Origin: Sphingobacteriales bacterium
GTDB lineage: Bacteria; Bacteroidota; Bacteroidia; Chitinophagales; Chitinophagaceae
Assembly: GCA_004294195.1 (NCBI GenBank)
Contig: REAQ01000054.1
Coordinates: forward strand, 1-6,665
Length of the DNA stretch: 6,665 nucleotides
Reading direction: 5' to 3'
Below are positions 1 through 5,022 of the stretch, in pieces. Position 1 is the first letter of the stretch, and every line of letters begins with the position of its first letter. Position numbers and translations under genes: made by a program. The notes below the pieces were generated by a model that was not told where the DNA came from, did not search any database, and worked only from the letters and a program-made list of their open reading frames with translations.

Positions 1-731
1 TTGAACTCTTCCTTATGATTGGAGATATATTTATTGATCTCGGCGTCAGTCACTTTAATGGAGCTGTCAGAAATGGTAGTGTAAGGAACAACTACATAAT
101 TCAGGCTTGCTACACTTGAGTTGTCTGCATTCATTTTCTCGATCATCCATTTGGGCATGTAAGAGCCCATGGAAAGAAGGGAAGTATATTTATCTGCCAG
201 GCTTCTGGTGATCAACGGTTCAATCAGCTGATCGTTTACCATTTTCACTTCTTCCTGCTTCTTGCTTTTCTTCACATTATTAAACCAGTTCTTTGCTGCC
301 TGAACATCAAAAGCACCGGTGTTGGGATTGGTGAACAGTTGTTTGAATTCTGCAGGAGCATCCTCAGAAAACAAAAGTTCACTCATTTCTTTAGGGGTGA
401 AAGCGAGGCCAAGCTTACTCGTTTGCTCATTGATCAATTCTTCCTGGATATATCCATTCCAAATGCTCTCAATGATGTTCTGGGTCATAACTTCGTTGCT
501 GGCCATGCCCTGCTGACGGTTGGATTCCTCGATCTGCCTTACCCGGTCATTGAATTCCATCCTGTCGATCTTATTGCCGTTGATAGAACCTACTGAACTG
601 GTTTCACCGGCAAAAAGACCGCTACTTCCGCCAATAAAGGCATCCTGGACCAAAAATCCGATCAAGCTCAGGGCGATCAGACTGGTAAGCAACACGGCAG
701 CTTTGTCACGCAACTGTTGGATAATAGACAT
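1..731 (-). CDS. PpiD/SurA-like membrane-anchored peptidyl-prolyl isomerase, 5' part only
   Basis: I translated this on the minus strand from the ATG at 731-729; 243 codons are visible and the frame is still open at the left edge. The product starts MSIIQQLRDKAAVLLTSLIA. A short cytoplasmic N-terminus is followed by one hydrophobic segment (about residues 11-30, ending GFLVQDAF). This is the PpiD-type layout: an uncleaved inner-membrane anchor with the rest in the periplasm. Residues about 47-60 read 'SVGSINGNKIDRMEF', the usual entry into the SurA_N-type chaperone domain, followed by long amphipathic helices. The rotamase (parvulin) domain expected in this family would lie beyond the window. 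The family helps fold outer-membrane and secreted proteins. The start is supported by a consensus promoter about 32 bases upstream, and there is no clear Shine-Dalgarno. The gene runs away from the putative origin. The family is fairly sure; whether the parvulin domain is active cannot be judged here. Confidence 0.85.
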   Translation of the reverse strand, partial: MSIIQQLRDKAAVLLTSLIALSLIGFLVQDAFIGGSSGLFAGETSSVGSINGNKIDRMEFNDRVRQIEESNRQQGMASNEVMTQNIIESIWNGYIQEELINEQTSKLGLAFTPKEMSELLFSEDAPAEFKQLFTNPNTGAFDVQAAKNWFNNVKKSKKQEEVKMVNDQLIEPLITRSLADKYTSLLSMGSYMPKWMIEKMNADNSSVASLNYVVVPYTTISDSSIKVTDAEINKYISNHKEEF

Positions 732-762
732 ATACTATTATAAATGTTTTTTAAAAGGGAGG

Positions 763-794
763 CAAAAATAGGTGAATTTGGGCTTATCAACAAA
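763..794 (-). promoter_or_regulatory. Bacteroidota-type promoter of the PpiD-like gene
   Basis: On the minus strand there is TTTG (794-791), a 20-base spacer, then TATTTTTG (770-763). This matches the Bacteroidota sigma-ABfr consensus, TTTG at -33 and TAnnTTTG at -7, with normal spacing (or 17 bases from the adjacent second TTG). Transcription would start near 756-758, leaving a short AT-rich leader before the ATG at 731. The -33 element overlaps the first DnaA-box-like site (784-792), so DnaA binding there could affect this promoter; that last point is inference. Confidence 0.7.
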
Positions 795-804
795 CTGTGG
801 AAAA
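784..804. promoter_or_regulatory. DnaA-box pair, left edge of the oriC candidate
   Basis: TTATCAACA (784-792, plus strand, one mismatch to TTATCCACA) is followed after three bases by TGTGGAAAA (796-804), which is TTTTCCACA on the minus strand and fits TTWTNCACA. The two sites face each other across ACT. The pair overlaps the -33 element of the leftward promoter. Confidence 0.5.
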
Positions 805-911
805 CAGGCAAAATATGCGCGGGAATTGGATTTGAGAAGTATATATACCATCCTTTCCACATATAGTTGTGTATTGCCCGGTATTATGGTAAGGGGATTT
901 CACAGGGATGG

Positions 912-971
912 TGTGGATAATCGGGATATTGGTGGATAAAGCCCATTTTTACCCATCCCGGATGTGGATGA
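912..971 (-). promoter_or_regulatory. Core DnaA-box array, three same-strand sites
   Basis: Three DnaA-box-like 9-mers lie on the minus strand: TGTGGATAA (912-920, exact complement of TTATCCACA), GGTGGATAA (931-939, one mismatch) and TGTGGATGA (963-971, one mismatch). Their starts are 19 and 32 bases apart. Same-strand arrays at short spacing are typical of the high-affinity part of bacterial origins, where DnaA first loads. Confidence 0.6.
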
Positions 972-1162
972 AATAGGAAAACTTGTTGATGGGCCGTATG
1001 TGTATTTTACCATTCAGGGGTGTTCAGAAAACTTATTAGTGACTATACCCATGTAAACTAACAGATGATCCGCCAAAGGTGCCGATCTTTTTTTCCGATG
1101 GTCTTTTTAATCCACCGTTGTGAATATATTGGCTAAACGCCGTGCTGGCTTAGATGAACTGT

Positions 1163-1192
1163 TGTGGATTGAATGTGAGTTGCCGTGGATAA
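1163..1192 (-). promoter_or_regulatory. Second DnaA-box pair near the AT-rich tract
   Basis: TGTGGATTG (1163-1171) keeps the 7-base core ATCCACA on the minus strand but has two mismatches at its outer end. CGTGGATAA (1184-1192) is TTATCCACG on the minus strand, one mismatch. Their starts are 21 bases apart on the same strand, close to the 19-base spacing in the core array. They lie about 60 bases before the AT-rich tract. Confidence 0.45.
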
Positions 1193-1250
1193 ACAGCCGA
1201 TCGGTATATTTCCAAAATTGCTACAAAAAACATATCCCCTAATTCACAGA

Positions 1251-1300
1251 CCTAATAGTAATAAGTATTTTTATAAATAATTAAGTATTAATAATACTAC
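1251..1300. other. AT-rich tract, candidate DNA unwinding element of oriC (and nadA leader)
   Basis: Only 7 of these 50 bases are G or C, the lowest GC stretch in the window. It begins 2 bases after a DnaA-box-like site (TAATTCACA, 1240-1248) and ends 5 bases before a consensus one (TTATGCACA, 1306-1314), which suits an unwinding element. At 1253-1264, TAATAGTAATAA reads 3'-AAT-AAT-GAT-AAT-5' on the plus strand, resembling DnaA-trio repeats. An imperfect palindrome sits at 1284-1298 (AGTATT-AAT-AATACT). The tract is also the immediate upstream region of nadA: TATTTTTA (1266-1273) is one base from the TAnnTTTG -7 consensus, but no convincing -33 TTG lies at the right distance, so I do not call a nadA promoter with confidence. 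Confidence 0.5.
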
Positions 1301-1305
1301 GGTTG

Positions 1306-1314
1306 TTATGCACA
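1306..1314 (+). promoter_or_regulatory. Consensus DnaA box overlapping the nadA start codon
   Basis: TTATGCACA fits TTATNCACA exactly and contains the nadA ATG (1308-1310). It closes the right side of the AT-rich tract. It could be part of the origin, a site where DnaA represses nadA, or a chance result of an ATG followed by His-Asn codons. Confidence 0.4.
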
Positions 1315-2300
1315 ATGATTTAGTACAGATTGGGAAACGAGGATTCTACGATGTGGCCATTAATCCCGCGCTGGATCTTTTCGCTGAGATCAAAAGATTG
1401 AAGAAAGAAAAGAATGCAGTGCTGCTGGCGCACTATTACCATGATGCGGATATACAGGACATCGCAGACTATATCGGGGATAGCCTGGGCCTTGCCCGTC
1501 AGGCAGAAAAGACCGATGCAGACATGATCGTATTTGCCGGTGTGCATTTTATGGCTGAAACTGCCAAGATCCTGAACCCCACCAAGAAGGTAGTGATCCC
1601 TGATCTCAAGGCAGGTTGCTCATTGAGCGACTCCTGTCCCCCACCCCTCTTTAAACGCTTTAAAGAGGCCCATCCTGACCACATCGTTATTTCCTATATC
1701 AACTGTAGTGCAGGCATCAAAGCGCTCAGTGACGTGATCGTGACGAGCTCTAACGCGCAATTTATCGTGGAGAGCTTTCCAAAGGAGCAGAAAATCATTT
1801 TTGCGCCCGATAAGAACCTGGGTGCCTACATCAACAAGGTGACGGGCAGGAACATGCTGCTATGGGACGGCGCCTGTATGGTGCATGAGATCTTCAGCAT
1901 GGAAAAGATTGCCCGGTTGAAAACACGCCACCCCGAGGCAAAGATGATCGCACATCCGGAATGTGAGGATCCGGTATTAAAGCTTGCTGATTTCATCGGG
2001 TCTACCACACAGCTATTGAAATTTACGGAGACGGACCCGGGTAATGCGTACATTGTGGCCACAGAAACCGGGATCCTGCATCAGATGATGAAGAACTCGC
2101 CGCAGAAGACTTTTATACCCGCACCTCCGCATAATGCATGTGCTTGTAACGATTGTCCGCATATGAAACTCAACACCCTGGATAAATTATACCTGTGTAT
2201 GGAGTATGAGCAGCCGGAGATCCTGATGGATGAGGAGTTGAGACTGGCTGCGCGGAAACCGATCGAGAGAATGCTGGAGCTTTCTAAAACCATCGGTTAA
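1308..2300 (+). CDS. nadA: Quinolinate synthase NadA
   Basis: This 330-residue protein matches NadA, which condenses iminoaspartate with dihydroxyacetone phosphate to give quinolinate, the second step of de novo NAD synthesis from aspartate. It works in the cytoplasm with an oxygen-sensitive [4Fe-4S] cluster. The three pseudo-repeated domains each carry landmarks: '[21 protein letters not shown]' (39-59), '[12 protein letters not shown]' (80-91) and '[14 protein letters not shown]' (97-110) with a cluster Cys at 104; '[21 protein letters not shown]' (130-150); '[11 protein letters not shown]' with Cys190; 'HPEC' (216-219); 'TETGILHQM' (252-260); and '[12 protein letters not shown]' (278-289), where Cys283 is the likely third ligand. 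The length is normal. The ATG at 1308 has no clear Shine-Dalgarno, but the next in-frame ATG lies far inside the conserved domain. nadB and nadC are not in the window. It is the first gene of a probable three-gene transcript, and its start lies at the edge of the oriC candidate. Confidence 0.95.
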
Positions 2301-3888: not shown

Positions 3889-5022
3889 ATGCAAACACGT
3901 CTACTTTTTATTACGCTGCTGATCGCATTTTTTGCATCCTGCAGTAGTTCCAACAAGACGGTTACCTACGCTGAGAATCGTGCATTGAATGATGCATTGA
4001 AAAAGCTTGAGAAAAAGCCGAACGACCCCGAGATCCGAAAGGATGTCATCGATCTCTATCATCAGGCCGTAAACCAGCATGAACAACGCATTCAGGCTTA
4101 TAAAGGCAGTGTGGATATGGGCCGTTTTGATGCGATGATCGCAGAATATAATACCCTGCAGAAGATCAATGAATCCATTAGGACTTCTTCGGTGTTTCGC
4201 GAGGTGGATACCAAGAATTATAGTGCTGATATTCAGTCTGTGAGGGCTGAAGCTGCAGAGACTTTTTACCAGTCTGGTTTAAGAAACCTCGACTATGGCA
4301 CCAAGCGTGAAGCAAGGCGTGCCTATGATGATTTTCAACGGGCTAAACGCTATGTGAATCCATATAAAGATGTGGATGTATTGATGCGGACCGCCTATGA
4401 AGCTTCAGTAGTCAATGTACTCATCAACCCCATCCAGAATTCTTTTCCCGGGATGTGGAACAACAACAACTGGAATTTTGATCCAAGGATTCGTTTTCTG
4501 CATGAACAACTTGCGCGCGATTTGGGTGGACAATCAGGGACCAACCAGGTGAGATATTTCACTGATATAGATCTCCGCAGGTTGAACATCAGACCGGATG
4601 TGGTAGTAGATATCAACTGGAATTTTATGCAGAGTCCGCCCAATATCATCAATCGATATGACAAGCAGCTGAGCCGGAATATTGAGATCGGGAAAGATAC
4701 TAGCGGCAGACCCGTGTACCAAAATGTGCGTGCTACACTTCACGTCACCCGGTACCAAAATCCATCTAACGACATTGACTACCGTATAGTGGATGCAACC
4801 ACCAACCAGACCCTTGATTGGAACCGTGTACAAACAAGTTCTAACGGACAGATATTTGAAACAGCAACATTTACAGGTGATTCCCGTGCGTTGAGTCAGG
4901 ATGATTGGAGACTGGTGAATAACCGCGGTGGCAACGGAAACCAACAGGACCAAATGATCAGGGATATGTACGATGACTTGCTGCGGGAATTGCGGAACCG
5001 CATTTCTACAAGGGTATTCTAG
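3889..5022 (+). CDS. Lipoprotein of unknown function with helical, TPR-like N-terminal part
   Basis: I chose the ATG at 3889 (377 residues) because it begins a lipoprotein signal: MQTRLLFITLLIAFFASC, with basic Arg4, a hydrophobic core, and Cys18 after Phe-Ala-Ser as a plausible lipobox. An upstream TTG at 3847 would add a non-signal-like extension. After Ser-rich residues 19-21, residues about 28-170 are charged, helix-forming and TPR-like ('KKLEKKPNDPEIRKDVIDLY', 'AAETFYQSGLRNLDYGTKRE'). The C-terminal half is richer in beta-like and Asn/Asp-rich sequence ('MWNNNNWNFDP', 'RPDVVVDINWNFMQSPP') and ends NRISTRVF. I do not recognise a named family. The acidic surface-export signal seen after Cys in some Bacteroidota lipoproteins is absent, so a periplasm-facing location is more likely (inference). 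It lies 72 bases after the HAD gene, with no clear consensus promoter (TATTTTCG at 3864-3871 is one base off the -7 box but no -33 fits), and is convergent with feoB. Confidence 0.8.
   Translation: MQTRLLFITLLIAFFASCSSSNKTVTYAENRALNDALKKLEKKPNDPEIRKDVIDLYHQAVNQHEQRIQAYKGSVDMGRFDAMIAEYNTLQKINESIRTSSVFREVDTKNYSADIQSVRAEAAETFYQSGLRNLDYGTKREARRAYDDFQRAKRYVNPYKDVDVLMRTAYEASVVNVLINPIQNSFPGMWNNNNWNFDPRIRFLHEQLARDLGGQSGTNQVRYFTDIDLRRLNIRPDVVVDINWNFMQSPPNIINRYDKQLSRNIEIGKDTSGRPVYQNVRATLHVTRYQNPSNDIDYRIVDATTNQTLDWNRVQTSSNGQIFETATFTGDSRALSQDDWRLVNNRGGNGNQQDQMIRDMYDDLLRELRNRISTRVF

Follow-up and report, generated by a model that had tools for sequence, protein, structure and literature searches.

The replication origin (oriC) of gammaproteobacteria adjoins gidA/mnmG. 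One description of how an origin opens is the basal unwinding system (BUS), for which the account in PMC8287927 gives a DnaA box or tandem boxes, a spacer of at most 16 bp and at least three DnaA-trios with a middle A (consensus 3'-GAT-5'); the reported distance from the first box to the trios peaks at 10-13 bp (PMC8287927). Within the Bacteroidota, the oriC of Elizabethkingia meningoseptica, an Ori-Finder prediction, is described in excerpts of PMC8994065 as a segment of 649 bp that carries AT clusters and three boxes resembling TTATCCACA, and by the coordinates given there it lies 1.9 Mb from dnaA.

The DNA analysed here (the window) is a stretch of 6,665 nucleotides that forms one complete contig (C337) of a genome in 398 contigs, 75% complete. 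The closest named contigs coding for NadA carry the labels Chitinophagaceae or Bacteroidota. The bacterium likely belongs to the Chitinophagaceae, and the family of 147 related genomes used for comparison appears to be Chitinophagaceae-like. An origin between a ppiD-like gene and nadA had been proposed for this window. We estimate at roughly 95% the probability that the interval 732-1307 is the chromosomal oriC, where DnaA is predicted to gather and to open an AT-rich stretch (Table 1). This agrees with the original prediction and is supported by a cluster of boxes beyond chance in both the window and its relatives, an adjoining AT-rich element, a conserved cassette, the GC skew of the relatives and, as an independent marker, parS-like sites nearby (10 of 12 relatives). 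The predicted gap of 576 bases is indeed present and separates divergent genes, the PpiD/SurA-like gene starting at 731 on the minus strand and nadA at 1308 on the plus strand. No tRNA was found in the window. Farther to the right, the 5' part of an ORF of the Beta-lactamase2 family (PF13354; 2310-3208) includes a tandem direct repeat of about 29 bases, imperfect and recognised by eye; an upstream ATG frame closes soon after the repeat and the gene looks split in the contig. Another ORF (3889-5022; 377 aa) has an N-terminus that looks lipoprotein-like by eye and gives no Pfam match at E 0.001.

Table 1. Features of the predicted origin and its flanking genes (positions in the window).
Feature	Position	Strand	Basis or remark
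PpiD/SurA-like peptidylprolyl isomerase gene, 5' part, left of origin	3..731	-	Pfam SurA_N_2, E 2.1e-29
Gene-free origin interval, predicted oriC, 576 bases	732..1307	.	Box counts here; in relatives, tests of skew and clustering
Inverted box pair TTATCAACA/TTTTCCACA, ppiD-proximal, second conserved block	784..804	.	Shared with three near relatives in an alignment
Weak DnaA box CTTTCCACA, two mismatches to TTATCCACA	853..861	+	
Perfect DnaA box TTATCCACA	912..920	-	
DnaA box TTATCCACC	931..939	-	
DnaA box TCATCCACA	963..971	-	
Weak DnaA box ATATTCACA	1119..1127	-	
Weak DnaA box CAATCCACA	1163..1171	-	
DnaA box TTATCCACG	1184..1192	-	Loci L036 and L023 have a box at equal distance from nadA (within 2 bp)
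Unwinding cassette, 32 bp: tandem boxes, spacer, four DnaA-trios; predicted opening site	1232..1263	+	Trio rule, PMC8287927
Cassette box 1 ATATCCCCT	1232..1240	+	
Cassette box 2 TAATTCACA	1240..1248	+	
Cassette spacer GAC, 3 bp	1249..1251		
DnaA-trios CTA ATA GTA ATA (3'-GAT TAT CAT TAT-5' on the other strand)	1252..1263		
AT-rich stretch, 12% G+C, predicted DNA unwinding element	1250..1299	.	
nadA, quinolinate synthase, right of origin; ATG at 1308	1308..2300	+	Pfam NadA, E 1.2e-121; NCBIfam nadA above cut-off

The cluster of DnaA boxes exceeds chance, as estimated from 1000 dinucleotide shuffles of the 576-base gap. Six boxes have at most one mismatch to TTATCCACA (shuffle mean 0.28; six reached in 0 of 1000), and the rest of the window beyond 784-1314 holds only one such box. 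For the motif TTWTNCACA, ten sites with at most one mismatch were observed against a mean of 2.07, a number reached in none of the shuffles, and two full matches lie wholly within the gap against a mean of 0.11 (5 of 1000 shuffles reach two). The original prediction had counted three full matches. All three exist (796-804 and 912-920 on the minus strand, 1306-1314 on the plus strand), but the third overlaps the start codon of nadA and therefore only two are wholly inside the gap. Its six one-mismatch sites become eight on recounting (784, 853, 931, 947, 963, 1119, 1184 and 1240), and its chance expectation of 0.03 full matches, lower than that from the shuffles, rested on equal base frequencies. 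Among 122 upstream sequences, each about 1 kb long, 29 contain the inverted pair of 784-804 in the strict version TATNAACAWANTGTGGAAAA.

A single strongly conserved block, TTATCCMC-NWATYCACA-NNN-NTAATARTAATA, is seen upstream of nadA when 124 of 127 loci are compared (three with fewer than 330 bases upstream were left out; the 127 loci overlap partly and some genomes occur twice). A loose form of this cassette fits 107 of the 124 upstream sequences (86 distinct sequences). Conservation of its columns is partly built in, because the rows were chosen by pattern; the eight columns of box 1 are free of this effect. In the window, the trios begin 3 bp past the second box and 11 bp past the first, and the trios of Bacillus subtilis are oriented in the same way relative to their boxes. 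With two weak boxes (three and two mismatches), a 3-bp spacer and four trios, the segment 1232-1263 is, by the rule as set out in PMC8287927, a predicted BUS-type module. The low-GC tract noted originally is real, and an AT-rich element lies beside the boxes in the relatives too (by eye, in a listing of 122 sequences).

The strict core of the cassette is found in 75 of the 147 family genomes, as a single copy in 74 (76 matches in total), and a reversed control pattern gives five matches. Of the 76 core matches, 64 share the strand of nadA and precede it closely: 44-184 bp separate them from the NadA match, whose start may itself fall a few codons inside the gene. The 72 genomes without a strict core may have variants, assembly gaps or true absences, and variant cassettes were seen in two relatives, G106 and G114. 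When a consensus, derived from loci of the same family, was scored over 200 kb, the site upstream of nadA was the best match in six of six genomes; the variant site has eight mismatches in G106 (next best ten) and seven in G114 (next best nine). The sole strict core match of G114 (G114:C1:2922308-2922329, at 2.92 Mb) lies near the skew terminus, away from the origin, and is perhaps due to chance. The cassette was also considered as a signature of the whole phylum. This was rejected: in a phylum sample, the strict core occurs in 10 of 14 family members and in 15 of 381 others, among which the control pattern gives 14 matches, and the two-box form is present in 4 of 9 members of the family and in one of 386 other genomes, with no control matches. 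Outside the family, it is thus at background.

Since the window's own genome is in 398 contigs, origin status was tested in relatives, those used for GC skew being selected as single contigs. The original prediction had named a skew minimum near the site as a check and the outcome in these relatives speaks for it. When three genomes were sampled, each at 20 stretches of 20 kb, the switch from minus to plus fell at 2.22-2.46 Mb (site at 2.376), 5.32-5.62 Mb (site at 5.567) and 6.98-7.36 Mb (site at 7.075). In all three, this interval of about 5% of the genome holds the site upstream of nadA and never dnaA. On a finer scale (200 kb centred on the site), the minimum lies within 400 bp in three of six genomes (+243 bp in G114, -220 bp in G119, +359 bp in G022) and is 10-40 kb off in the other three (about +10 kb in G018, +12.6 kb in G106 and +40 kb in G055). 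The skew of 9.5-kb flanks was calculated for 49 of 80 named-contig loci and for 60 control stretches from three genomes: 46 of the 49 loci have the higher value on the side of nadA, versus 35 of 60 controls, and a change of sign from minus to plus is seen in 36 of the loci versus 8 of the controls; these control stretches are not divergent gene pairs, and gene direction may therefore contribute to the difference. A fit to ORF strands, which is noisy, counts against an origin here: it placed the origin elsewhere in three of three genomes (in G106 about 0.1 Mb off).

The density of boxes again singles out the site. It is the densest 600-bp segment within 200 kb in six of six genomes, with 5 to 12 boxes, and the maximum in 60 sampled 20-kb stretches from three genomes is 1-4. 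Among 81 of the 127 loci (those at least 12 kb long with 3 kb upstream), the segment before nadA outranks every other part of the locus in 70, is tied in seven and is not the densest in four. Whole-genome counts of exact TTATCCACA are, among the matches listed, near the control in many genomes and proved uninformative.

Sites resembling parS (GTTNCACGTGNAAC) are present 2-13 kb from nadA in the single-contig relatives, with the exception of G004 and G141, in which no exact site was found (2 of 12 genomes). Of 32 such sites, 31 lie within 14 kb of nadA, the other being a site in G018 at 0.8 Mb; a reversed control pattern gives five sites in the 12 genomes. The window's own genome has two parS-like sites, both on contig C331 beside mnmG and ybeY. 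Of 28 flank stretches searched, 19 contain an mnmG homologue, at a distance of about 3-14 kb from nadA (several of the other nine hold little flank), and 17 a ybeY homologue; taken together, the homologues of these two genes lie at about 2-15 kb. From the position of these homologues in the relatives, C331 and its parS-like sites are probably near the window. We infer that the skew and parS results of the relatives carry over to the window's genome. The mnmG gene of C331 (locus L243, 1461-3229) reads in two overlapping frames; this contig therefore carries a frameshift, either real or from assembly.

The original prediction noted that dnaA is not in view, and in the relatives it is indeed distant. 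In each of the 12 single-contig relatives at least 0.4 Mb separates it from nadA, and its loci, of 2.4-3.5 kb, have at most two boxes per 600 bp in all 12. A dnaA-linked origin was therefore rejected. In the window's own genome (75% complete) dnaA was looked for and not found, as against 12 of 12 other genomes searched, and an assembly gap is most likely responsible.

Conservation of the boxes together with gene order, proposed as another check, favours an origin in the relatives. The gene context itself is common: of 110 loci, 78 have ppiD in divergent orientation no more than 4 kb from nadA, and 23 of the other 32 hold at most 1.5 kb upstream. Nine hold about 10 kb without a ppiD match (L020, L022, L027, L034, L060, L061, L063, L069 and L071). 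In G022 and G119 the ppiD match is 28 and 56 kb away, and ppiD was dropped as a constant anchor of the origin. Twelve of the 76 strict core matches are not directly before nadA on its strand, and five of these were examined. In four (G017, G130, G134 and G139) the cassette has ppiD within about 0.6 kb, in a geometry like that of the window, and no nadA; at the fifth (G099), five boxes fall within 450 bp and mnmG is found at a distance of about 2.2 kb. G139 is of the same genus as the window, and there the place of nadA is taken by HAD and feoB genes, as if the origin-side nadA had been lost or replaced. The NadA that this genome does encode is distant (53% identity) and lies on a different contig (G139:C15:32503-33438 and L290), with none beside the cassette. 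Judging by these loci, the origin would usually have both neighbours and could lose either. The ppiD/nadA context of the original prediction thus stands as common, with neither gene an obligatory neighbour.

The events at the origin can be pictured by following the BUS model, from which the order of loading, filament growth and melting is taken. DnaA-ATP would bind the scattered boxes (784-971 and 1119-1192) and the tandem pair at 1232-1248, and a DnaA filament would grow from the tandem pair onto the four trios. The stretch of 12% G+C would then melt, permitting helicase loading. After firing, forks would leave in both directions, one through ppiD and the other through nadA towards mnmG and parS.

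A cluster of boxes is by itself no proof of an origin. The boxes could be a site for titration or reactivation of DnaA (datA/DARS-like), or a regulatory cluster near the origin, with replication starting elsewhere nearby, and the skew minima that lie 10-40 kb away in half of the six genomes would suit such an arrangement. It fits poorly, however, with the minima found at the site itself in the other half, with a trio cassette and an AT-rich stretch attached to the boxes, and with the absence of any denser 600-bp cluster in the surrounding 200 kb of all six genomes. We regard it as very improbable. A further explanation concerns transcription of nadA: the block 1232-1263, whose end is 44 bp before the nadA ATG and which is overlapped by a weak sigma-70-like site (1243-1271), could be a promoter, operator or riboswitch, with the DnaA boxes regulating both divergent genes. 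Yet the block stands beside ppiD without nadA in the four loci described above, the window has no Rfam match to a riboswitch or other RNA family at curated thresholds, promoter-like matches in 700-1400 number 2 versus 2.8 expected, and the skew switch and parS would be left unexplained. This explanation we find hardly credible.

The block, as part of an origin, may nevertheless have a double role and also serve transcription of nadA. A bolder proposal is that the near-invariant 32-bp cassette is a single-copy barcode of the origin throughout the family and that nadA, transcribed outward from the opening region itself, ties the synthesis of NAD to the opening of the origin. Such transcription is suggested by the usual position of the nadA start, no more than about 200 bp from the cassette, but we consider the proposal as a whole doubtful.

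A correct oriC reading would fix where replication begins in a family sampled by 147 genomes, and this point would be far from dnaA. At least one single-contig record, that of G114, which begins at dnaA, 0.7 Mb from the site, would then misplace its start. The pattern search for the cassette works even on fragmentary genomes and would aid estimates of growth rate from read depth as well as ori-ter analyses. The conserved cassette is also a ready substrate for testing, in Bacteroidota, the validity of the BUS model, which was developed on other bacteria.

An oriC is a known kind of object; what is new is the conserved 32-bp cassette as its predicted opening region. A literature search for this origin returned nothing relevant, passages of PMC7111523, PMC5850607 and PMC13342612 had no bearing on the question, and the family-wide cassette with its gene context was not found in the literature searched; DoriC records may list single genomes. 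Like that of E. meningoseptica, this is a predicted Bacteroidota oriC with boxes and AT-rich DNA, distant from dnaA in the relatives, but it has a trio cassette, a feature not mentioned in the excerpted description of PMC8994065. It resembles the gammaproteobacterial origin in that many of the relatives' loci have an mnmG homologue close by, although here it is ppiD and nadA, and not mnmG, that abut the origin. The closest likeness in structure is to the BUS of the B. subtilis oriC and its predicted counterparts as outlined in PMC8287927: tandem boxes, a short spacer and at least three middle-A trios, here beside an AT-rich stretch, with a distance of 11 bp from the first box to the trios that fits the 10-13 bp peak. 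It differs in that the two 9-mers of the cassette share one base, the first trio often departs from GAT, conservation across the family is strong and unwinding is, in this case, predicted.
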